This document shows positions 1 to 23,619 of a stretch of DNA of 23,619 nt, one piece after another (the first letter of the stretch is position 1; every line of letters begins with the position of its first letter). The notes beneath the pieces are model-generated. The model was given only the letters and a program-made list of their open reading frames with translations. It was not told the origin of the DNA and did not search any database. Made by a program: the position numbers and the translations under genes. This DNA is from a virus. The stretch spans positions 1-23,619 of the IMG/VR virus record IMGVR_UViG_3300042924_001557; one strand, 5' to 3'.

Positions 1-21
1 CAAAATTTTCAGCGGCGTTAG
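1..21 (+). CDS. 3' end of an upstream gene, probably a fibre-like paralogue of the next gene (partial)
   Basis: Only seven codons are visible, reading QNFQRR and then TAG at 19-21. The next protein ends in NSNFQRATNQNP, so the shared NFQR near the terminus suggests two related virion genes in tandem. A competing reading in another frame ends in KFSALGQ with TAA at 27-29, also an ending compatible with this kind of fibre module. Too little is present to decide firmly. Confidence 0.35.
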   Translation, partial: QNFQRR

Positions 22-32
22 GACAGTAAACT

Positions 33-2449: not shown

Positions 2450-3447
2450 TGTTAGGTAATGCACAATTTTATCATCGCACCATTCGTAAGATGGTTGTTG
2501 TGTTTGGCACAATGTTCAATGACCTTGAAATTGTTCGCTACACACAATCTGGTAGTCCAAAAGAAAAACTTAAAGTGCCTTTGTCATATGGTCCTAAAGA
2601 AAGATATTTGACACAGATTACTTCTGATCCAAATTTGATCAAGTCAATTAATTCTGTGATACCAAGAATGTCTTTTAATCTTGATAGTCTTGAGTATGAT
2701 TCAAGTCGTAAACAGATTTCTACATTACAGAATTTTGCCGCCGTTACAAACACTGGGGTTAGCACACAATATCTACCTGTGCCATATAACTTTGAATTTA
2801 GTTTGTCGATTTATGTTCGCAACACAGAAGATGGTACACAAATACTAGAACAAATCCTACCATTCTTTACACCAGACTTTAGTGTAGTAGTAGATTTTAT
2901 TCCTCAAATGGGTCAGAAATATACTGTGCCTATCATACTCAATTCTGTTGCATCTACAGTTGAATATGAGGGTGCTATGGGTGACGGTACAACAAGAATC
3001 ATTATTTGGGATTTGACGTTTACTGCCAAAAGCTTTATTTGGCCACCAGTCAAATCTGGCAAAATTATCAATTCTGCTAATACCAATATCAACATTGACC
3101 TTACTTCAAAAGAAATTCAGAAAGTTTATGTTGACTATGCGAATGGTAATAATGTATTCACTACTGGTGAAACGATTCGTGACAGCGCCAATGGGTTCTT
3201 TGGCACAGTAGAATACTTCAGCAACACCGCACTTGGCACTTTAGTGATCACTGGTGGTAATGATTACATTAAACCTGGATATACACTCACAGGTGATTAT
3301 TCTGGTGCAAAATATAATGTCTCTACATTAGACACAACTTCGATTAATGCTGCTGCGGTAATTGTTGAGCCCAATCCAACAACAGCCGCACCACCTGCTG
3401 ATTTTGGATTTATTGAAACGATCAAAGAATGGCCCGACACATTATGA
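2449..3447 (+). CDS. 15: Tail sheath stabiliser / tail completion protein gp15
   Basis: The 332-residue product fits gp15, which caps the top of the contractile tail and provides the docking face for the neck. Recognisable features are MLGNAQFYHRTIRKMVVVFGTMFNDLEI at the start and VPLSYGPKERYL. The FNLDSLEYDSSRKQIST segment and the VPYNFEFSLSIYVRNTEDGTQILEQILPFFTPDF core follow. The conserved body ends near residue 220. Residues about 225-295 add a module reading VFTTGETI...GFFGTV...LGTLVITGG...PGYTLTGDYSGAKYNV, similar in layout to the one in gp14. T4 gp15 is about 272 residues, so the extra length is roughly that module. The end overlaps the terminase small subunit gene. Confidence 0.88.
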   Translation: MLGNAQFYHRTIRKMVVVFGTMFNDLEIVRYTQSGSPKEKLKVPLSYGPKERYLTQITSDPNLIKSINSVIPRMSFNLDSLEYDSSRKQISTLQNFAAVTNTGVSTQYLPVPYNFEFSLSIYVRNTEDGTQILEQILPFFTPDFSVVVDFIPQMGQKYTVPIILNSVASTVEYEGAMGDGTTRIIIWDLTFTAKSFIWPPVKSGKIINSANTNINIDLTSKEIQKVYVDYANGNNVFTTGETIRDSANGFFGTVEYFSNTALGTLVITGGNDYIKPGYTLTGDYSGAKYNVSTLDTTSINAAAVIVEPNPTTAAPPADFGFIETIKEWPDTL

Positions 3448-3845
3448 AAAAACTGAATAAAAATTTATCTGAAATCTTTGATGTAGAACCTATCGAAGAA
3501 AAAAGAATAGAGGCATTACCTGTTGTCGTAGATGATAGCGCCAATCAAATTGATGCTGATGCTGAATTTGCTCGTACCAATATGCGTTCATTGATTGATA
3601 ATGGTAACAAAGCATTAACTGAATTGGCATCAGTTGCCAATCAATCAGAGTCACCAAGAGCATACGAAGTCTTAGCCACAATGATGAAAAATCTGGCTGA
3701 GATGAATAAAGATTTACTAGAGTTACAAAAAAGAAAGAAAGAGCTTGCACCTCAGTCTGAGTCTAGTAAAGGAGTCAACATAGATAAAGCAGTCTTTGTT
3801 GGCTCCACCAACGAATTACTTAAAATGATTAAAGGAAATAAATAA
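3444..3845 (+). CDS. 16: Terminase small subunit gp16
   Basis: The product is 133 residues from the ATG at 3444. The small terminase recognises concatemeric phage DNA and regulates the gp17 motor. The N-terminal KKLNKNLSEIFDVEP resembles the opening of small terminases in marine T4-like phages. The centre (residues about 40-100) is helical with heptad-like leucines and an EMNKDLLELQKRKKEL stretch, matching the coiled-coil oligomerisation core. The C-terminal FVGSTNELLKMIKG is the usual conserved tail. I chose 3444 over the in-frame ATG at 3429 because 3444 gives the family-like N-terminus and an ATGA overlap with the gp15 stop. No strong ribosome binding site precedes either start, consistent with coupling. 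A dps-like gene separates it from gene 17. Confidence 0.85.
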   Translation: MKKLNKNLSEIFDVEPIEEKRIEALPVVVDDSANQIDADAEFARTNMRSLIDNGNKALTELASVANQSESPRAYEVLATMMKNLAEMNKDLLELQKRKKELAPQSESSKGVNIDKAVFVGSTNELLKMIKGNK

Positions 3846-3854
3846 AATTATGGA
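3845..3854 (+). repeat. Left copy of a 10-bp direct repeat flanking the dps-like gene
   Basis: AAATTATGGA here recurs exactly at 4283-4292. Each copy spans the untranslated junction and the first codons of the gene that follows (dps-like here, gene 17 at the other copy). Because it contains the start codon and AT-rich bases, chance is possible. Confidence 0.5.
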
Positions 3855-4284
3855 ACAACTAATCGAACAAATGAAAGTTATCTTGGGTACAAATTTTGCT
3901 TTGTACTTTAAGGCACATACTTTTCATTGGAATGTAGAGGGTCCAGACTTTGCTCAATATCACGGTTTCTTAGGAGACTTTTACGAAGCAGTGTTTGACC
4001 AAACCGATTCAATTGCTGAACATATCCGTGCGTTGAATTCGTATGCGCCAACAACTCTTGGTAGAATGAGTGAACTGTCAAAGATTACTTTTAACGTAGC
4101 GATACCTGCGCCAATCGTAATGATGTCAGAACTTGCTGCGGATAACGACAAATTTATTATGGAACTTCGTACTGGTATTGCTGTTGCTGATGCCGCCGAT
4201 GAACCTGCGGTAGGTAATTTCTTACAAGATATTTTAGATGCTCATCAAAAACATGGTTGGATGCTGAAGAGTTTTACACGCTAA
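3850..4284 (+). CDS. Dps/ferritin-like protein encoded between the terminase genes
   Basis: The 144-residue product is close to a minimal Dps subunit. The family signature is plain: Lys-x-His-x-Phe-His-Trp-Asn-Val-x-Gly-Pro at residues 21-32, then F34-x3-H38, and D53-S-I-A-E57-H-I-R-A-L. Dps proteins form 12-subunit shells that oxidise and store iron with peroxide, and some bind DNA. Ferroxidase-site residues corresponding to H26, H38, D53 and E57 are present. The Asp normally four residues after the second His is Gly (G42), with an Asp one place later (D43), so iron chemistry may be altered. There is no Lys-rich N-terminal tail of the kind that binds DNA in E. coli Dps. It lies 4 bases after gene 16 and 3 bases before gene 17, so it is probably co-transcribed with the packaging genes. 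The family call is firm; the role in phage is unknown. Confidence 0.88.
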   Translation: MEQLIEQMKVILGTNFALYFKAHTFHWNVEGPDFAQYHGFLGDFYEAVFDQTDSIAEHIRALNSYAPTTLGRMSELSKITFNVAIPAPIVMMSELAADNDKFIMELRTGIAVADAADEPAVGNFLQDILDAHQKHGWMLKSFTR

Positions 4285-4292
4285 ATTATGGA
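4283..4292 (+). repeat. Right copy of the 10-bp direct repeat flanking the dps-like gene
   Basis: AAATTATGGA repeats the sequence at 3845-3854, running from the dps-like stop into the first codons of gene 17. The pair brackets exactly one gene, as a cassette gained through short homology would, but chance cannot be excluded. Confidence 0.5.
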
Positions 4293-5919
4293 TGACGGAT
4301 ACCTTGGTAATGCCCGACTTAAACGAGTCGGTGTTGAAATATCCTACACAGAAGAGCAACTAAAAGAAATTGTAAAATGCACCGAAGATCCGGTGTACTT
4401 TATTCGTACCTACGTTAAAATTGTCAACGTAGATAAAGGTCTTGTTCCTTTTGAGATGTGGCCGTTTCAAGAAGAAATGGTCACTCAATTTCACAACAAT
4501 CGTTTTGTCATTGCAAAAATGCCACGACAGGTCGGTAAGACAACTACCACTGTCGGTTATATGCTTTGGTCTGCCTTGTTTAATGAAGAATTTGTAATTG
4601 GTATTCTTGCCAACAAACTTCAACTTGCACAAGACATTCTTGCCAAGATACAGAAAGCATATGAGTATCTACCCATGTGGCTTCAGCAAGGTATTATCAA
4701 CTGGAACAAACGTTCGATTGAATTAGAGAACGGCTCAAAGATTTATGCGTATGCAACGTCGGCAGCAGGTGTTCGTGGTGGTTCGTATAATCTGATCTTC
4801 CTTGATGAATTTGCTTTCGTGCCACACAACATGGCGGTAGACTTTTTTACTTCTACTTACCCTGTTATTTCTTCTGGTAAAACATCTAAAGTAATTATTG
4901 TTTCTACACCGAACGGCTTAAATCTATTCTACAAGATGTGGATGGATGCAATTGAAAATCGTTCACTGTACAAGACACTTGAGATTCACTGGTCGATGGT
5001 GCCGGGTCGTGATGAAAAGTGGAAAGAAGAAACGATACGAAACACTTCTGAAGAACAGTTCCGTCAAGAATTTGAGACAGAGTTTATTGGTTCTTCAGCG
5101 ACACTGATTTCTGGTGCTAAGTTACGTTCACTAGCATTTCATGATCCAATGCGAATTGAAGATGATGGAAATCTGTTTGTATATGAAGACCCCAGACCAG
5201 GTAGACTATACATTGCTACCGTAGACTGTGCTGAAGGTGTTGGATTAGATTATCACACAATCAATATTTTAGATGCCACAGAAGCACCTTACAAACAAGT
5301 TGCAAGATACCGAAATAATAAGCTGCCCCTATTGTTTTTACCTACAGTCATCTATGCTTTAGCAAATCGTTACAATCAAGCATACGTTCTGATTGAGACA
5401 AACAATGTAGGACAACAAGTAGTAGATATTTTACACTACGATCTAGAGTATGAGAACATCTATAAGCTAGAGCATCATCACATTAAGGGACAGAGCATCT
5501 CTGCTGGCTTCAAACGTTCAGTGTCTTTTGGTGTAAAAACGACCAAATCAGTTAAGAAAATTGGCTGTGCTAATCTCAAGACATTGATCGAAAACGACAA
5601 ACTGATCATCAATGATTTTGACACAATTGCTGAACTGAATACCTTCGTTCGAACAAGAGACACATATGCTGCCGAAGAGGGTAATAATGACGATATTGTG
5701 ATGGGTTTAGTGCTTTATGCATGGCTGACAGCACAGACTTTCTTCAAAGATGAGACAAGAATTGACATCCGTAAGATTATGTTGGAAGAGCAAAACCTGT
5801 TGGGAGAAGAAAGTATGCTACCGTTTGGCTTCATTGAAGACGGGCTGCGTAGAGAGATGGAAGTGGAAGATGGTGATATGTGGGAGCCGCCAGCTGGTTA
5901 TTTATCATCAAGTTTGTAA
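4288..5919 (+). CDS. 17: Terminase large subunit gp17 (packaging ATPase/nuclease)
   Basis: The 543-residue packaging motor has both expected domains. In the ATPase half, the Walker A motif is MPRQVGKTT at residues 78-86 with K84. Walker B is LIFLDE with D173-E174, followed by a coupling-type segment VSTPNG. In the RNase-H-like nuclease half the acidic residues are D313 in TVDCAEG, E370 in VLIETNN and D468/D469 in NNDDIVMG. It pumps DNA through the portal and cuts the concatemer at headful. T4 gp17 is 610 residues; this one is shorter at both ends, as in marine relatives. Start 4288 follows the dps-like stop by 3 bases with no obvious Shine-Dalgarno, so coupling is likely. The nearest downstream gene, 18, has its own promoter-like motif. 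Confidence 0.95.
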   Translation: MDDGYLGNARLKRVGVEISYTEEQLKEIVKCTEDPVYFIRTYVKIVNVDKGLVPFEMWPFQEEMVTQFHNNRFVIAKMPRQVGKTTTTVGYMLWSALFNEEFVIGILANKLQLAQDILAKIQKAYEYLPMWLQQGIINWNKRSIELENGSKIYAYATSAAGVRGGSYNLIFLDEFAFVPHNMAVDFFTSTYPVISSGKTSKVIIVSTPNGLNLFYKMWMDAIENRSLYKTLEIHWSMVPGRDEKWKEETIRNTSEEQFRQEFETEFIGSSATLISGAKLRSLAFHDPMRIEDDGNLFVYEDPRPGRLYIATVDCAEGVGLDYHTINILDATEAPYKQVARYRNNKLPLLFLPTVIYALANRYNQAYVLIETNNVGQQVVDILHYDLEYENIYKLEHHHIKGQSISAGFKRSVSFGVKTTKSVKKIGCANLKTLIENDKLIINDFDTIAELNTFVRTRDTYAAEEGNNDDIVMGLVLYAWLTAQTFFKDETRIDIRKIMLEEQNLLGEESMLPFGFIEDGLRREMEVEDGDMWEPPAGYLSSSL

Positions 5920-7692: not shown

Positions 7693-8238
7693 ATGGCATT
7701 TAACGTAAATCAGTTCCGTTCACAACTAACAGGTGACGGTGCCCGCCCAAATCTATTTGAGGTAAGTATGCCGTTTCCTGCGTTCTCACTACCAGGAAAC
7801 GCACAAACAAAAATGACGTTCATGTGTAAGACAGCACAACTTCCAGGGGCAACTCTGGGTGTTGTGCCAGTTCAATACTTTGGCCGTGAATTAAAGTTTG
7901 TGGGCAATCGCACGTTTGCTGACTGGACAGTAACAATTATCAACGACGAAGATTTTATTGTGCGTAATGCATTTGAGCGTTGGATGAATGGCATCAATAG
8001 TCATAATCTAAACGTTCGTAATCCAGCCGCTGGTACACCACTAGGTTACACAACTGATGGTGAAGTTACACAGTTTGGTAAAGCGGGTAACTCAATTAAG
8101 AAATATAAATTTGTTGGAATGTTCCCATCAGACATCACACCAATTGATGTTGATTGGGGATCAAATGATACGATTGAAGAGTTTTCTGTAACACTTACCT
8201 ACCAGTGGTGGGAAGCAGTTGCAGATGGTGTGGTCTAA
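7693..8238 (+). CDS. 19: Tail tube protein gp19
   Basis: The 181-residue protein forms the rigid inner tube of the tail. Family features are FRSQLTGDGARPNLFEVSMPFP at the N-terminus, and CKTAQLPGATLGVVPVQYFGRELKFVGNRTFADWTVTIIND. The helix FIVRNAFERWMNGINSH follows, and the C-terminal strand pair is YKFVGMFPSDITPID...EEFSVTLTYQWWE. T4 gp19 is 163 residues. It has its own late-promoter-like motif and Shine-Dalgarno and is closed by a terminator directly after the stop codon, so it can be made as an independent abundant transcript. A diverged paralogue is encoded at 15490-16029. Confidence 0.93.
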   Translation: MAFNVNQFRSQLTGDGARPNLFEVSMPFPAFSLPGNAQTKMTFMCKTAQLPGATLGVVPVQYFGRELKFVGNRTFADWTVTIINDEDFIVRNAFERWMNGINSHNLNVRNPAAGTPLGYTTDGEVTQFGKAGNSIKKYKFVGMFPSDITPIDVDWGSNDTIEEFSVTLTYQWWEAVADGVV

Positions 8239-8239
8239 G

Positions 8240-8262
8240 AGTAGGGCTTTTGCCCTACTTTT
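8240..8262 (+). terminator. Rho-independent terminator after gene 19
   Basis: An 8-bp perfect stem, AGTAGGGC (8240-8247) pairing with GCCCTACT (8252-8259), encloses a TTTT loop and is followed by T residues (8259-8262). It starts two bases after the gene 19 stop. It separates the tail genes from the endonuclease and portal genes. Confidence 0.85.
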
Positions 8263-8281
8263 ATTACAGGATGATAATTTA

Positions 8282-8926
8282 ATGGCGTTATACCTTCTTG
8301 TCAAAGAACATGCTGACACAGGTTTAAAATACTTGTGTAAGCATGTTGCTTCTTCTTTTTCCGAATGTGAAAAATATAAAGGTTCTGGCATTTATTGGAA
8401 AAGACATATAAAACAACATGGTAACAATGTAAAAACTATCTGCCTGTTTGTCACTGAAGACGAAAAAGAGTTTCGTCAAGTTGCTAAAAAATATTCTTTA
8501 AAGTTCAATGTGATTGAATCTAAAGAGTGGGCTAATCTTTGTAATGAAGAGGGCCAAGGCGGCAACACCGTTGTTGATAAAAAAGAACACGGTAAAAAAA
8601 CTAAAATTAAACTACATCATCCAGATGTTAGAGAAAAACATCTTGCACATTTGAAAGAACACGTAAAAATTACTCAACCATTAGCAGCAAAAGCAGCAAA
8701 AGAAAAACTTACTGGCGTTTCAAAAACTGAACGGCATAAAGAAAATATGCGTGGTAAAAGACCCCATGTTATTCAGTCGGGTAGTAAAAATAATAATGCT
8801 AAAAGCATTCAAACTCCTTACGGAATATTTGGTAGCATACGTGAAGCATCACAACAAATTGAAGGACATACATACAAAATGATTTGGGATAGACTACAAA
8901 ATGATAATTCGTGGGGGTATATCTAA
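8282..8926 (+). CDS. Free-standing homing endonuclease, GIY-YIG/Seg-like
   Basis: The 214-residue product has the layout of phage homing endonucleases. The N-terminal block is ALYLLVKEHADTGLKYLCK followed by YKGSGIYWKRHIKQHG, then ESKEWANLCNEEGQGGNT. These are typical of the GIY-YIG-like group in T4-type phages, though the GIY motif itself is degenerate. The middle is Lys-rich. A NUMOD3-like segment (KTERHKENMRGKRPH) precedes a C-terminal DNA-binding segment TPYGIFGSIREASQQIEGHT...MIWDRLQND. Such enzymes cut an allele lacking the gene and are copied in by repair. I start at 8282 because upstream codons would run through the gene 19 terminator. Its stop overlaps the gene 20 start (TAATG). Exact nuclease class is less certain than the homing role. 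Confidence 0.78.
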   Translation: MALYLLVKEHADTGLKYLCKHVASSFSECEKYKGSGIYWKRHIKQHGNNVKTICLFVTEDEKEFRQVAKKYSLKFNVIESKEWANLCNEEGQGGNTVVDKKEHGKKTKIKLHHPDVREKHLAHLKEHVKITQPLAAKAAKEKLTGVSKTERHKENMRGKRPHVIQSGSKNNNAKSIQTPYGIFGSIREASQQIEGHTYKMIWDRLQNDNSWGYI

Positions 8927-17968: not shown

Positions 17969-18380
17969 CGTCAAACTAATAAGAATGCAATCTGGTGAAG
18001 ATATTATGGCTTCTATGTTTGAAGATGGTGAATCTGATCAAATACAAATCAATGATCCCATGCGTATTGTGTTTCGTCGTTTACCAACAGGTCAAACGGT
18101 TATGATGATGATGCCTTGGTTGCCAGTAGAATTGATCAAAGAGAACTCTGCAATGATTTATTATTCAGATATTGTAACCGTAGTAGAACCAAAAGAATCA
18201 ATGATAAGATACTATGACAAACTTGTTGAGCGAACTATAGAAGAAATGGCTGACTCTGATAAGATGATAAACAATCTCTTAGAAGAGCAAGAAGGTGAAG
18301 AAGAACAAAATATAGAAAATGAAATTATGGACGATGTGCTTCAAAGTATATACGAGGCAAAGAACAAGAAACTACACTAA
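17961..18380 (+). CDS. Small conserved protein after uvsW, possibly an Sm-like barrel
   Basis: The 139-residue protein has an N-terminal strand-rich half (NVKLIRMQSGEDIMASMFED, IQINDPMRIVFRRLPTGQTVMMMMPWLPVEL, AMIYYSDIVTVVEP) and an acidic helical tail (TIEEMADSDKMINNLLEEQEGEEEQNIENEIMDDVLQSIYEA). The VKLIR-x2-SGEDI opening followed by a compact set of strands, including the PWLP turn, is seen in uncharacterised small proteins of marine T4-like phages. It is reminiscent of Sm/Hfq-type barrels, but that fold call is a guess. It overlaps uvsW by 8 bases and is therefore part of the recombination operon. T4 UvsW.1 occupies a comparable place but I see no clear similarity. An RNA-binding or protein-interaction role is possible. 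Confidence 0.6.
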   Translation: MHNVKLIRMQSGEDIMASMFEDGESDQIQINDPMRIVFRRLPTGQTVMMMMPWLPVELIKENSAMIYYSDIVTVVEPKESMIRYYDKLVERTIEEMADSDKMINNLLEEQEGEEEQNIENEIMDDVLQSIYEAKNKKLH

Positions 18381-18394
18381 TAGGAATTTTCGTT

Positions 18395-19915
18395 ATGTCA
18401 AAAGTGGTGACATTTGTTATACCAAGCAGTGCTGCTCAAGCATATCAAGCACTTGCTAATAAGTATGCGGCTATTGAGCCACCAACGTGGGCATTGCTTC
18501 TAGCAAATGCTGTTCGTGTTGAAGGTCACGATCCATGTATTCTAGACTTCGATGCTGATCCAGCAAGAGACTTAGAATTTGCTGCACACAAAATTGCTGC
18601 TACAGGCGCAGACATAGCAGTATTTGTTCTCTACGGACAAAATCCAAACTCAGGCACCACGATGATGATTGGTGCATCTCTGTTAGCAACACAACTCAAA
18701 CTTTCACATCCCTCAATTAAAACTGTATTCATTGGCTCACATGCATCTGCGTTGCCATATGATGTGATTGGTCTGCCTTACGTTGATTTCGTATTCATCA
18801 ACGAAGGTGTATATGGTCTGCTAGATTTACTTCAAACAAATTACAAAGATGATTTAGATAAAGTTCGTGGACTTGTTTACAAGAAACACGGCTTTGCTGC
18901 TACGGGTGCGCCAGGTGAAATTGTACAGACGAAAGACATGGATCGTGTGATGCCTGGTTATGCATGGGATTTGCTACCAAAGAATAGAAAATTACTAGAC
19001 AAGTATCGTGCCCACTATTGGCATAACTATTTTAAAGATGATGGGCGTACACCTTTTGCTGCTATCTCAACATCATTAGGTTGTTCGTTTGGATGTAACT
19101 TCTGTATGATCAACATTGTGAATCGTACATCATATGAACACGGCACTGTTTCATCTGACTCACGTGGTATGCGTTTTTGGTCACCTGAGTTGATGCTCAA
19201 AGAGTTTGAGTATTTGTATGAGAATGGTGTTCGTACTGTGCGTTTGACTGATGAGATGTTCTTTTTGAATAAAAAGTATTACATACCAATTCTAGAAGGC
19301 ATCAAACAACGTGGTATGGATTTCAACTTTTGGGCATATGCACGTGTTGATTCTGTTCGCAAAGATCAATTAGAATTATTCAAAGAAGCAGGTGTCAATT
19401 GGCTATGTCTTGGTATCGAAGCAGCAAATCAAAATGTACGACTTGAGATCGAAAAAGGTAAGTTTGAAGATGTAGATATTCGCCGAGTTGTTGCTGATGT
19501 AAAAGCAGCAGACATCAATATTCTTGGCAACTACATGTTTGGTTTTCCAGAAGATACGATGGAGACAATGCAAGAAACACTAGACTTGTCACTTGAGTTG
19601 AATACTGAACACGCTAACTTCTATGCAGCAATGGCATTACCTGGTAGTCCATTGTACATGTATGCAAAAAATAGTGGTTGGGATTTACCAGAGAAATTTG
19701 AAGAGTTTGCATTCTTATCTTATGATTGTAAACCGCTACGCACAAAGACATTGACTGGTGCAGAAGTGTTGAAGTTCCGTGATGAAGCATGGCACAAATA
19801 CTTTTCACATGAGCCATTCTTGAATCTTGTTGAAACAAAGTTTGGTGCTGATTCAAGACACAACCTTACAGAGATGTCAAAAATAAAATTGAAACGAAAA
19901 ATACTTGGAGATTGA
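18395..19915 (+). CDS. B12-binding-type radical SAM enzyme
   Basis: The 506-residue enzyme has two parts. Residues 1-160 form a Rossmann-like domain of the cobalamin-binding type (PPTWALLLANAVRVEGHDPCILDFDAD, DIAVFVLYGQNPN, VFIGSHASALP, VDFVFINEG), but the His of the DxHxxG cobalamin motif is not evident. The radical SAM core follows from about residue 222, with the [4Fe-4S] motif C230-x3-C234-x2-C237, then RLTDEMFFLNKKYY, LCLGIEAANQNVRLEIEKG, and GNYMFGFPEDTMETMQETL. These are barrel elements of the BchE/methyltransferase-like class. Reactions in the class include methylation, cyclisation and sugar or lipid modification; the substrate here is unknown. Its stop lies two bases before the transketolase start, marking it as the first enzyme of a sugar cassette. 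AGGAA at 18383-18387 serves as ribosome site. Confidence 0.85.
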   Translation: MSKVVTFVIPSSAAQAYQALANKYAAIEPPTWALLLANAVRVEGHDPCILDFDADPARDLEFAAHKIAATGADIAVFVLYGQNPNSGTTMMIGASLLATQLKLSHPSIKTVFIGSHASALPYDVIGLPYVDFVFINEGVYGLLDLLQTNYKDDLDKVRGLVYKKHGFAATGAPGEIVQTKDMDRVMPGYAWDLLPKNRKLLDKYRAHYWHNYFKDDGRTPFAAISTSLGCSFGCNFCMINIVNRTSYEHGTVSSDSRGMRFWSPELMLKEFEYLYENGVRTVRLTDEMFFLNKKYYIPILEGIKQRGMDFNFWAYARVDSVRKDQLELFKEAGVNWLCLGIEAANQNVRLEIEKGKFEDVDIRRVVADVKAADINILGNYMFGFPEDTMETMQETLDLSLELNTEHANFYAAMALPGSPLYMYAKNSGWDLPEKFEEFAFLSYDCKPLRTKTLTGAEVLKFRDEAWHKYFSHEPFLNLVETKFGADSRHNLTEMSKIKLKRKILGD

Positions 19916-19917
19916 TT

Positions 19918-20688
19918 ATGGATTTGCAAAGAAAAGCAAACTTATATCGTAAAGAATTATTTGAAAAGTTTGTTGAAGTAAAACAAGGACATCCTGGTTC
20001 TACTTTCTCAATGCTAGAGATTGTTACCACATTGTATCATGGTGGGTATGTTGGCTTTGAAGATAAAGTTATTATCAGCAAGGGTCATGCAACAGTAGCA
20101 CTGTATCCTATTCTGCGTGACTTGGATATTATTCCACAAGAAGATTGGGATAATTGGGGTAAAGGTAAACCAACGTGTCTGCGTGTGTTTGGTAACATCT
20201 CAATACCAGGCATTGATATGACATCAGGCTCACTTGGGCATGGTATTGGTGTTGGTGCTGGTATGGCAATTGCTGATCCAAACAGTCATGTTCATGTTGT
20301 TATCTCAGAAGGTGAACTGTATGAAGGCTCGACATGGGAAGCATTGTTGTTTGTTGCACATCGTCAAATCAAAAACATGACAATCTTTATTGACATTAAT
20401 AATCTTATTATTCTTGGTAAGACGGATGATTGTTTGATGCTCAATAGCATTCGTGAGAAGTTGTCTGGTTTCCCGTTTGACATATACTCAGTTGATGGAC
20501 ATAATACAAAAGAAATTACACATGCTTTGGATGAAGTAGCATATCAACCAAAGATTATTTTATGTCATACAGTTAAAGGTAAAGGCTTCTCATTGATGGA
20601 GAACAAACCTGAATGGCATTATATGCAAGCAATTACACCAGAACAAATTGAACAGTGCCGTAAGGAGATTAATGATGCTACAGCGTGA
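19918..20688 (+). CDS. Transketolase-like enzyme, N-terminal (ThDP pyrophosphate) subunit
   Basis: The 256-residue product corresponds to the N-terminal third of transketolase. It has the conserved histidines H25 in QGHPGS, H57 in SKGHAT and H108 in GSLGHGIGVGAGMA. The pyrophosphate and metal-binding motif, usually GDGE...N, reads S130-E131-G132-E133-x2-E136-G with Asn161, exactly 30 residues after position 131. The metal-ligating Asp is therefore Glu, an unusual change in this position. The C-terminal KGKGFSLMENKPEWHY is typical. ThDP enzymes of this family move two-carbon ketol units. It is encoded as a separate subunit with the C-terminal half next door. The start at 19918 follows GGAG by 7 bases; an in-frame TTG at 19912 is too close. 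Confidence 0.9.
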   Translation: MDLQRKANLYRKELFEKFVEVKQGHPGSTFSMLEIVTTLYHGGYVGFEDKVIISKGHATVALYPILRDLDIIPQEDWDNWGKGKPTCLRVFGNISIPGIDMTSGSLGHGIGVGAGMAIADPNSHVHVVISEGELYEGSTWEALLFVAHRQIKNMTIFIDINNLIILGKTDDCLMLNSIREKLSGFPFDIYSVDGHNTKEITHALDEVAYQPKIILCHTVKGKGFSLMENKPEWHYMQAITPEQIEQCRKEINDATA

Positions 20689-21592
20689 TGCATTTATTGA
20701 AGAAATAAGCAAAAGATTACAAACAGACAGAGACATTTATTTTTTGTCAGCAGATTTTGGTGCAGCAGCACTAGATTCTCTGCGTGAAATGTATCCAGAT
20801 AACTTCATTCATTGTGGTATCTCAGAACAAGCAATGATTGACATTGCAACTGGTCTTGCACTTCAAGGTAAAAAAGTATTTTGTTATGCAATGGCACCAT
20901 TCATCTCTCTTCGTGCAATTGAACAAATCAAGTGTGGACCATCGATGATGAATCTACCAATTGCTATTCTTTCAGTTGGTATTGGTATTGGTTATGCCGA
21001 TGCTGGTCCTACACATTACATTACTGAAGACTTTGCATGTATGCGTTCAATTCTCAATCTGAATGTCTATACATTGGCAGATGCAAGTTCTGCAAAAAGA
21101 TTAGCAAATAGTCTCTTAGACAATCCCGAATTGTGTTATGTTCGTTTTGATCGACATGAACAACCAGAACTACCTGTAACCAACTTTACACAAGACTTGA
21201 CTTATCGTTTGATGGGTGACACAGTTACTTCAGAGAAAGTTCTTGTGATTGGTTCAGGTAAGATGTCACACATCATTGCTGATGTCTATAAAGAAACTTC
21301 AGATAAAGTTGTTGGTATTGATTTGATTCGTGCCAAACCATTTCCTAATACACTGAATATGTTGTTAGAAGAATGTGGTGGTGTAATTGTAGTTGATGAA
21401 CAAACACCATGCGGTTCTTTGGGTGCCGCTGTGCTTGAAGCAATGTCACAGAGAAACTCACTCAATAAAAAAGTAAAAGTAATCACACTACCAGAAGAGT
21501 ATTTGTTTGAGAATGGTGGTCGTGAATATCTACTAAAGAAACACGGTTTGAGCAAAGAAAATATTCTGAAAACACTCAATGATAATTTCTAG
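20675..21592 (+). CDS. Transketolase-like enzyme, C-terminal (pyrimidine) subunit
   Basis: This 305-residue partner supplies the aminopyrimidine-binding and C-terminal domains of transketolase. Residue E51 in HCGISEQAM is the glutamate that activates the cofactor in the family. It is followed by DIATGLALQGKKVFCYAMAPFI, SVGIGIGYADAGPTHYITEDFACMRSI, and a C-terminal Rossmann domain (KVLVIGSGKMSHIIADVY, VIVVDEQTPCGSLGAAVLEAM). It overlaps the N-terminal subunit gene by 14 bases, so the two would be made in equal amounts, and it overlaps the following kinase gene by 14 bases. AAGGAG (20662-20667) is 7 bases from the chosen ATG; the ATG at 20672 is equally possible. The split gene form is common for transketolases in archaea and in surface-sugar gene clusters. 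Confidence 0.9.
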   Translation: MLQRDAFIEEISKRLQTDRDIYFLSADFGAAALDSLREMYPDNFIHCGISEQAMIDIATGLALQGKKVFCYAMAPFISLRAIEQIKCGPSMMNLPIAILSVGIGIGYADAGPTHYITEDFACMRSILNLNVYTLADASSAKRLANSLLDNPELCYVRFDRHEQPELPVTNFTQDLTYRLMGDTVTSEKVLVIGSGKMSHIIADVYKETSDKVVGIDLIRAKPFPNTLNMLLEECGGVIVVDEQTPCGSLGAAVLEAMSQRNSLNKKVKVITLPEEYLFENGGREYLLKKHGLSKENILKTLNDNF

Positions 21593-22562
21593 AACACCAT
21601 ACAGACTATCACTGTTTGGTGGTGGAACAGATTATCCAGATTGGTTTCAATCAAGGCAGACTAAGGTAATATCTGCCGCTATGGCGCATTATTGCTACAT
21701 AAATTTAAAAAAGTTACCGCCTTATTTTGATTATGTAAATAGAGTTATCTACTCTAAAATAGAAAGTGTATCTGATGTTTCGCAAATAGAGCATCCTTCT
21801 GTAAGGGAGTGTTTAAAATACTATGGCATACCTAACGGCGTTTCTATTACTCACGATGGCGATCTTCCTGCTCGTTCTGGCATTGGATCATCTTCTTCAT
21901 TTACTGTTGGACTGATTCACGCTATACTGACATCACAAGGTAAGTTGCCTACACCATATGGTTTGGCAATGGATGCTATCAATATAGAACAAAACTATAT
22001 TGGTGAGTCTGTTGGTGTTCAAGATCAAATCATGGCTGCGTACGGTGGCATTCGTGTCATTGAACTTTCTGGTGCAAACATGCATGTTCGTGACCTGAGA
22101 ATCAAAGACGATTATGTTTTAGATTTAGAAGATCATATCATGTTGGGTTTTTCTGGCATTGACAGATTTTCAAATGTTCATGCTAAACAACAGATTGATG
22201 CTATCAAAGAGGGTAAATCTAAAAAGCTTCTTGAAGAAATTACAACAATTACCGAAACAGCATTGCATATTCTTGAGAATCATGGTAAAATAAAAGAGAT
22301 AGGTGAATTGCTGAAGTATCAGTGGAGCCGTAAGCGTGAACTTACAGATAGTGTTACAACTGATTACATAGATACAATATACAACAAAGCAATCAATGCT
22401 GGTGCATATGGTGGTAAGTTGATGGGTGCAGGTGGTGGTGGATTCTTTATGTTTCTTGCACCACCAGATACACATCAAAAGATAAAAGAAGCAATACCTG
22501 GAATCAATGTATGGGTGCCTTTCAAGTTTGATTTTGAAGGCTCAAAAATTATTATGGAGTAA
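21579..22562 (+). CDS. GHMP sugar kinase, D-glycero-D-manno-heptose 7-phosphate kinase-like
   Basis: The 327-residue protein belongs to the GHMP kinase family. Its start IISRTPYRLSLFGGGTDYPDWF is characteristic of HddA-type heptose 7-phosphate kinases and their fucokinase-like relatives. The ATP-binding loop is P97-A-R-S-G-I-G-S-S-S-S-F, followed by IEQNYIGESVGVQDQIMAAYGG and, near the end, KLMGAGGGGFFMFL (G283-A-G-G-G-G288). HddA phosphorylates D-glycero-alpha-D-manno-heptose 7-phosphate at O1 on the way to GDP-heptose. A neighbouring transketolase could make the sedoheptulose 7-phosphate from which that pathway starts. No isomerase (GmhA), phosphatase (GmhB) or nucleotidyltransferase (HddC) is visible here; they could lie beyond the window or come from the host. 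Substrate assignment is by family only. Confidence 0.82.
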   Translation: MIISRTPYRLSLFGGGTDYPDWFQSRQTKVISAAMAHYCYINLKKLPPYFDYVNRVIYSKIESVSDVSQIEHPSVRECLKYYGIPNGVSITHDGDLPARSGIGSSSSFTVGLIHAILTSQGKLPTPYGLAMDAINIEQNYIGESVGVQDQIMAAYGGIRVIELSGANMHVRDLRIKDDYVLDLEDHIMLGFSGIDRFSNVHAKQQIDAIKEGKSKKLLEEITTITETALHILENHGKIKEIGELLKYQWSRKRELTDSVTTDYIDTIYNKAINAGAYGGKLMGAGGGGFFMFLAPPDTHQKIKEAIPGINVWVPFKFDFEGSKIIME

Positions 22563-22564
22563 TG

Positions 22565-23619
22565 ATGAAGTATCCTTTAATGTCAGACAATATTACTAGA
22601 GAAGATTTAGATTTGGTAATAGAACATCTAAAAAAAGATAATCCTAAACTTACAAATGGACCAGAGTGCCGTGCTTTTGAAGAAGCATGGAGTAAATGGC
22701 TTGGTGTAAAGTATTCTGTGTTTGTCAACTCAGGTGCTTCTGCAAATCTGTTGTCAATGACAATGTTGAAGATCAAACATCCAGAGGGTGGTGAAGTTAT
22801 CGTGCCACCATTCACATGGGTGTCTGATATTGCTTCTATACTTCAATGTGGTTTTACTCCAGTGTTTGTGGATATTGATTTAGATACACTTGGTATGAAT
22901 GAGTTTGGCATACTCAATGCAATCACTGACAAGACACGTGCAGTCTTTATTACATATGCACAAGGCTTTGATTGCTTATCTCCTAGAGTATTAGAAGTTC
23001 TACGTCATCGTAAAATACCTTTGATTGAAGACGTTTGTGAATCACACGGTGCAACACACAACGGTAAATTGTTGGGAAGTTATGGTTGGATGTCTAACTT
23101 CTCTTTCTACTTTGCACATCACATGTCTACTATTGAAGGTGGTATGGTGTGTACAAATGATCCTGAAGTGTATCACACAGTTCGTATGCTTCGTTCACAC
23201 GGTATGGTTCGTGAATGTGGTGACTGGATAATGGCTGACAAATATAAAGCAGAATATCCAGAGTTGAATTCAGACTTCATATTTGCCTATGCTGCCTACA
23301 ATATGCGTAACAATGAAATTGGCGGTATACTTGGGCAAAATCAGTTGAAACATTTGGATGAAAATGTTAAACTACGAAATGAGAATCTATTTTACTTCTT
23401 GTCAAAACTAGATCAAAAGAAATATAAGGTTGACTTTAGATTGATTGGTTGCAGTAACTATGCGTTCAACATTGTTTTACAGCCAGAGTATGCAAACAAA
23501 GAGTTCGTAGAGAGATTGATGGGCAAGATGCGTGATGAACAAATTGAGTTTCGTCGTGGCTCTGCTGGTGGTGGTAATCAACTACGTCAACCATACTTGA
23601 AAAAAATTGTGCCAGAAGA
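22565..23619 (+). CDS. PLP-dependent NDP-4-keto-sugar 3-dehydratase, DegT family (partial, runs off the window)
   Basis: The frame is open from the ATG at 22565 to the last base, giving 351 residues without a stop. The DegT/DnrJ/EryC1 fold is clear: FVNSGASANLLSM (cofactor phosphate loop), VIVPPFTWVSDI, PVFVDIDLDTLGM, PLIEDVCESHGA. In aminotransferases of this family a Lys holds PLP. Here the segment is FYFAHHMSTIEGGM, with His185 at that position and His186 next. His at the Lys site is the mark of the dehydratase branch (ColD, and the RfbH/E1-type enzymes), which remove the 3-hydroxyl from an NDP-4-keto-6-deoxyhexose. LRSHGMVRE, NYAFNIVLQ and FRRGSAGGGNQLRQPYL also match that branch. An ATG at 22562, overlapping the kinase stop, is an alternative start. 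GGAG lies at 22556-22559. Confidence 0.88.
   Translation, partial: MKYPLMSDNITREDLDLVIEHLKKDNPKLTNGPECRAFEEAWSKWLGVKYSVFVNSGASANLLSMTMLKIKHPEGGEVIVPPFTWVSDIASILQCGFTPVFVDIDLDTLGMNEFGILNAITDKTRAVFITYAQGFDCLSPRVLEVLRHRKIPLIEDVCESHGATHNGKLLGSYGWMSNFSFYFAHHMSTIEGGMVCTNDPEVYHTVRMLRSHGMVRECGDWIMADKYKAEYPELNSDFIFAYAAYNMRNNEIGGILGQNQLKHLDENVKLRNENLFYFLSKLDQKKYKVDFRLIGCSNYAFNIVLQPEYANKEFVERLMGKMRDEQIEFRRGSAGGGNQLRQPYLKKIVPE

Follow-up and report, generated by a model that had tools for sequence, protein, structure and literature searches.

The window, by which we mean the whole stretch of DNA analysed (23,619 nucleotides), is a 23.6-kb IMG/VR virus record related to the Kyanoviridae. Its gp23, gp17 and gp20 are 64-65%, ~54% and 53-55% identical, respectively, to those of cultured Kyanoviridae (cyanophages and pelagiphages), and its ORFs and their families follow the module order gp13-14-15-16-(x)-17-18-19-20..23 of T4-like (Kyanoviridae-related) phages. 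Three genes on the plus strand form the locus of interest. The gp16 gene (3429..3845) encodes the terminase small subunit (Pfam DNA_Packaging, PF11053, E 5e-11; phrog_445, terminase small subunit, E 2e-33). The dps gene (3850..4284) encodes a 144-aa Dps-type mini-ferritin of type I (Pfam Ferritin, PF00210, E 3e-19; PDB Dps chains, E 5e-18; phrog_3636, labelled 'DNA binding protein'). The gp17 gene (4288..5919) encodes the terminase large subunit (Pfam Terminase_6N/6C, PF03237, E 4e-29, and PF17289, E 5e-16; labelled terminase large subunit in PHROGs). All three ORFs are intact, and the gp16/dps and dps/gp17 joints consist of 4 nt (3846-3849) and 3 nt (4285-4287), respectively. Thus, the ORFs and profile matches confirm the first-pass annotation in that a complete dps gene lies between gp16 and gp17 with joints of 4 and 3 bases. 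The 10-bp sequence AAATTATGGA is also present at both joints, as that annotation reported. Copy 1 (3845..3854, plus strand) consists of the last base of the gp16 TAA stop (3843-3845), AATT and ATGGA of dps, and copy 2 (4283..4292, plus strand) consists of the last two bases of the dps stop, ATT and ATGGA of gp17. Elsewhere in the window, a 235-aa ORF between gp19 and gp20 (8219-8926) looks like a homing endonuclease (GIY-YIG/Seg-like) and has no Pfam match at E 0.001. The region at 18395-23617 contains radical SAM/B12, split transketolase (two overlapping ORFs), GHMP kinase and DegT aminotransferase genes, and is likely a gene block for surface-sugar modification.

The AlphaFold2 model of the window Dps (pLDDT 96) has helices at residues 2-28, 34-61, 70-76, 88-115 and 119-143, which is the Dps-type ferritin-like four-helix fold with a short BC helix. 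The best 50 Foldseek matches of this model are all Dps or Dps-like ferritins, with TM scores of 0.89-0.96 to solved Dps subunits. His26 (3925-3927), His38 (3961-3963), Asp53 (4006-4008) and Glu57 (4018-4020), encoded within 3925..4020 on the plus strand, align with the H, H, D and E ligands of solved Dps at a spacing of 12, 15 and 4, so that the predicted protein has the His, His, Asp and Glu ligands of an inter-subunit ferroxidase centre. These four residues are invariant in 168 of the 168 distinct Dps sequences of the set. The same fold and the same ligands are found in the Dps mini-ferritins Bacillus Dlp-1/Dlp-2, Brevibacillus Dps, Pseudomonas PA0962, Listeria Dps and HP-NAP, and the best solved matches of this kind are 22-31% identical to the window Dps. 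Unlike these proteins, the window Dps is encoded by a phage and has no tail. The Lys/Arg-rich N- or C-terminal tail of the E. coli-type DNA-binding Dps is absent from it, because its N-terminal sequence MEQLIEQMK starts at helix A and its C-terminus is the end of the last helix. All 168 distinct Dps sequences are acidic (pI 4.7-6.0). The median dN/dS is 0.08 for dps, as compared with 0.02 for gp17 and 0.06 for gp15, and 300 of 303 complete dps copies are intact. These substitution rates and alignments show dps to be under purifying selection with every predicted ferroxidase ligand kept.

The nearest cellular Dps found is 30-42% identical to the window Dps. Recent capture of the gene from a bacterial host is therefore rejected, because no cellular Dps found exceeds 42%. 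One match of 47% (locus L360, CAIWHI010000271.1) lies on a 132-kb contig in a 'Bacteroidetes' MAG, but the genes around this dps match phage structural genes, and the contig is probably a misbinned phage. Stand-alone Dps proteins, with a proposed role against iron and peroxide, are also encoded by other phages ('Gratiaviridae' and others of the gut, Lactobacillus myophages, and Synechococcus S-SRM01 and S-EIV1). The dps genes of S-SRM01 and S-EIV1 are located away from the terminase genes, and their products are at most 31% identical to the window Dps. For the gut phages (PMC8008677) and the Lactobacillus phages (PMC6669764), a role in oxidative stress has been proposed, and these papers do not place dps between the terminase genes. 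No published description of a dps gene lying between terminase genes was found in the open literature, which is the part of the literature covered.

Genes 16 and 17 were described in the first-pass annotation as normally adjacent. This holds for T4, in which the two genes overlap, but not for the aquatic relatives HTVC008M, Mosig and ACG-2014e, in which 1-10 other ORFs lie between them. Cargo of this slot in cultured relatives includes plastocyanin, PhyH and halogenase. The gp16-gp17 interval has been described as a hot spot in T4-like phages (PMC3037559), and the region between g15 and g18 is hypervariable in T4-like cyanophages (PMC2984593). The dps gene of the window thus occupies the same slot as the host-like or auxiliary genes of the gp15-gp18 / gp16-gp17 hyperplastic region of T4-like cyanophages (Millard 2009, as cited in PMC2984593; Sullivan 2010, PMC3037559). 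However, the cyanophage g15-g18 region contains 4-14 varied genes, whereas the slot in the window clade usually contains one gene, dps, which is kept in place across a wide clade and is exchanged as two allelic types.

When IMG/VR contigs are searched with Dps and gp17 queries, at least hundreds of contigs are matched, and the resulting counts are lower bounds. The gp16-dps-gp17 order is found in at least about 290 of at least 359 loci, which overlap between searches and some of which share a contig. A gp17 tree was built from 84 representative lineages of <95% identity as a quick tree with some long branches. In this tree, 65 representatives have dps, 16 lack it and 3 are unscorable, 4 of the 16 dps-less rows being cultured outgroup phages. 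The identity to the window Dps among relatives that hold dps in the slot goes down to ~42%. This range of identity, together with the presence of dps in 65 of the 81 scored lineages, indicates that the arrangement is old. The dps gene was probably already in the ancestor of the clade, because early branches inside the clade carry it; the root rests on the cultured outgroup. The presence and absence of dps require 7 state changes on the tree, of which at least 5 are forced by starred branches, and a single clade of dps-less phages is rejected by the AU test (p-AU 0.0004). No cultured phage with dps in the slot was found among the 50,697 phage records searched, of which only 7 contain a similar Dps at any location.

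The states of the slot seen are empty, type I dps, type II dps, dps with an HEG and dps with an adhesin. ORFs of 191-192 aa that are NUMOD3/GIY-YIG-like are located exactly between dps and gp17 in L001 (after 6432), L004, L127, L265 (2415-2990) and L299 (3984-4559), and homing by these endonucleases could drive recombination at the slot. Two extra ORFs are located between gp16 and dps in L157 (1426-3539) and L321 (2316-3968), one of which is glycine-rich (Gly_rich_2, Calx-beta/Ig-like) and tail-adhesin-like. The interval from gp16 to dps is also long in L320, L322, L324, L325 and L354.

The presence and absence of dps can be compared in a natural set of empty and full slots, in which L056, L061 and L065 have dps and L277 lacks it. 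The flanks of L056 and L277 are identical at 93.6% of nucleotides over 2.2 kb and at 96.3% over 4.6 kb, and dps is missing precisely. The sequence of L061 is TCTAATAAAT-AGGAATACT[dps]AAGTAAAAAAT-GACTATTG, and that of L277 is TCTAATAAAT-GAATATTG. The difference between them is explained by a putative join at AAAT and one substitution, in which AAATTATGGA is not involved. L056, L061 and L065 form, with L277, clean present/absent natural pairs for testing. The gene is also found in decay. It is broken by an internal out-of-frame deletion in L088, and its start is lost in L290, in which AATAAA of the gp16 end runs into the gene, an assembly error being possible in either case.

The resident of the slot is also swapped. 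The Dps proteins fall into two types, I (including that of the window) and II (for example, that of L129), which are split by a fully supported branch, and type II is 42-46% identical to the window Dps. When type I (40 rows) and type II (22 rows) are placed on the gp17 tree, 9 exchanges are needed, and type II as a single gp17 clade is rejected by the AU test (p-AU 7e-5). Strict vertical inheritance of dps is rejected by this test. Like flanks with a different dps are found in L143/L174 (dps 53%, gp16 79%, gp17 84%), and a like dps with different flanks is found in L109/L058 (dps 94%, gp16 75%, gp17 76%) and in L053/L058 (dps 87%, gp16 66%, gp17 56%). In pairs of these types, the identity steps up or down at the ends of dps, the breakpoints being known as such steps between diverged pairs only. 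The Spearman correlation of identities is 0.55 between gp16 and gp17, but only 0.26 between dps and gp17 and 0.22 between dps and gp16. These comparisons show that the slot is old, that dps occupies it in most lineages and that it can be empty. They also show that lineages exchange the resident as a single gene, the breakpoints falling at its ends, and that gp16 and gp17 remain in place. Because the resident is kept in the slot and yet swapped, the slot acts as a site of exchange for which dps is the preferred resident. In L053, L055, L313 and their kin, gp17 is ~44% identical to that of the window, and the Dps of L053 and L055 is 70-71% identical; it appears that in these phages gp17 itself was replaced.

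A late-promoter-like box, ATAAATA (HTAAATA), is located at 3838..3844 on the plus strand, where it overlaps the gp16 end and lies 5 nt before dps; its function as a promoter is putative. The window contains fewer copies of HTAAATA than expected by chance (8 versus 16.9), and the forward copies sit right before structural genes or at gene starts. The copies at 3838, 5924, 7663, 10576, 12914, 14028 and 15478, which precede dps, gp18, gp19 and head genes, are candidate late promoters, and the motif is depleted elsewhere. Among the relatives, HTAAATA precedes dps in 114 of 168 distinct joints with dps, as compared with 1 of 14 joints without it, and it precedes gp18 in 81 of 92, gp14 in 0 of 98 and gp15 in 1 of 137 cases. 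Of the 98 loci in which gp16 ends with Asn-Lys, 78 use AATAAA for these two residues, as compared with 355 of 974 elsewhere; both this contrast and that for HTAAATA are inflated by shared ancestry. The box ends 3-10 nt before the dps ATG in nearly all cases, with a median of ~7 nt, so that a transcript from the box would be almost leaderless. Part of the conservation of the box may come from the C-terminal Asn-Lys-stop of gp16. These results suggest that the box is a candidate late promoter belonging with dps, and it is treated as a lead.

From these results, dps probably encodes a late-expressed ferroxidase mini-ferritin that limits iron and peroxide damage, and is an exchangeable cargo gene of a hot spot already known in T4-like phages. 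The gene would be expressed late, from the box at the gp16 end, by read-through, or both. The Dps dodecamer would oxidise Fe(II) with peroxide and store the iron, and would thereby reduce the Fenton damage that phage DNA, whether replicating or packaged, suffers in the dying cell, the oxidative-stress setting of infection being assumed. Exchange of the gene would proceed through recombination within or close to the flanking terminase genes, which are conserved, and the short AT-rich stop/start text, with no dedicated repeat. Control of iron and peroxide, one of the roles suggested in the first-pass annotation, fits the intact predicted ferroxidase centre. In L474 (1403-2337), in which dps is not at the terminase slot, dps is immediately followed by a gene for Fe/Mn superoxide dismutase with a targeting-like N-terminus (MRDLLSIIES), and this neighbourhood would agree with a role against peroxide.

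It is rather unlikely that Dps is instead a component of the virion or of packaging, made with the terminase, bound to the genome in the head or enclosed there with it, and possibly carried over into the next host. The location of dps inside the packaging operon and the late-promoter-like box are consistent with such a role, but the window Dps has no N-terminal extension able to target the head, and the slot in relatives also holds plainly non-virion cargo, such as plastocyanin, PhyH and halogenase. In large phages, dps is found at a second site (L344-L353 and many of L441-L513) among ORFs with T4-internal-protein-like N-termini (M..EFI.E). Its neighbours there often begin with MRAKEFI- or MKTFQEF-like sequences, T4 ipI beginning with MKTFKEF, and 30 of 428 ORFs there have an N-terminus of this kind, as compared with 6 of 1798 in the 16/17 loci. 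However, the second-site Dps ORFs examined are not fused. The BFVD viral structure library contains Dps domains in proteins of 290-763 aa, and several large Dps-bearing proteins in it are named 'prohead protease'. One scan of IMG/VR with a bacterial-like Dps profile gave stand-alone Dps only and no Dps-prohead protease fusion, and the BFVD names therefore stay a lead. The second-site genes, their ipI-like neighbours and the BFVD names may keep a virion role of the window Dps alive. The specific form of this role, in which a mini-ferritin is made late with the terminase, coupled to packaging and carried in the head with the genome, is a little less probable still. If it were true, T4-like phages of aquatic habitats would package an enzyme that handles iron and peroxide.

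The family name and the PHROG label suggest binding to DNA, by which Dps would compact or shield the DNA of the phage or silence that of the host, but this role is improbable. The window Dps starts at helix A without a Lys/Arg-rich tail, the pI is 4.7-6.0 in all 168 sequences, and the solved proteins closest to it in fold and sequence include Dps without tails, for example the Dlp proteins of Bacillus. The Dlp proteins are regarded chiefly as ferroxidases, and tail-less Dps is still able to bind DNA in some species. Direct compaction of DNA by a tail-less acidic Dps is unlikely. A role against iron and peroxide is better supported than DNA binding, because the ligands and the fold are kept, a basic tail is lacking and the pI is low.

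That dps is a neutral passenger of no benefit, in a slot that tolerates any cargo, is very improbable. The homing endonucleases (L001, L004, L127, L265 and L299) and glycine-rich adhesin-like genes (L157 and L321) in the slot would agree with such tolerance, as would the repeated loss of dps and the damaged copies of L088 and L290. However, a dN/dS of ~0.08, the intactness of almost all copies and the invariance of the ligands argue against it, as does the retention of two diverged Dps types at the same place.

The first-pass annotation further proposed that dps was gained by recombination at AAATTATGGA. A third copy of AAATTATGGA is located at 18322-18331, within coding sequence, and the chance expectation for the whole window is 0.10. 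This shuffle expectation overstates the surprise, because the copies at the joints are stop- and start-codon text: the end of a TAA stop, a spacer of 3-4 nt, ATG, and GA opening a second codon for Glu or Asp. Of 161 distinct junction pairs, 12 have AAATTATGGA at each joint and 17 at one joint alone; in every one of the 12, the identity of Dps to that of the window is 83% or more. It is absent from every dps-less gp16/gp17 joint listed, in which a single copy is expected if the insertion was mediated by the repeat. Other lineages carry other joint matches (AAAATAAAT and AATATTATGGA). The joints around dps do share somewhat more text than others, with at least 10 bases shared in 16 of the 161 pairs versus 0-1 in five control joint pairs, and a mean longest match of 6.30 versus 4.7-5.3. 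However, joints paired across different loci are nearly as similar (mean 5.98), because both genes often start with ATGGA and the upstream genes end in AT-rich stops. The comparison of junctions with and without dps, which the annotation had suggested, speaks against its proposal as well, because the best natural pair (L061 and L277) joins at a different short AT-rich match, although it indicates that deletion through such matches is possible. Sharing of the repeat at chance level, which the annotation had named as evidence against itself, is roughly what is found outside the subclade of the window. Thus, what stands is that dps is a discrete unit that enters, leaves and is replaced exactly at the joints, and what falls is AAATTATGGA as the record of an insertion. 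Since occupancy of the slot by dps is old and widespread, the joint of L061/L277 differs, the repeat flanks dps in few junctions, which are all close to that of the window, and it is missing from the dps-less joints listed, AAATTATGGA is rejected as an insertion scar, and a recent insertion at this repeat is scarcely credible and largely refuted already by these alignments.

These results correct a tempting inference, in that a short repeat found where genes abut tightly can consist of stop/start text. They describe how phages of a wide clade keep one auxiliary gene in a named slot and yet exchange that gene. With dps read as a mini-ferritin gene, they would suggest that stress from iron and peroxide is a recurrent problem late in the infection of aquatic bacteria.
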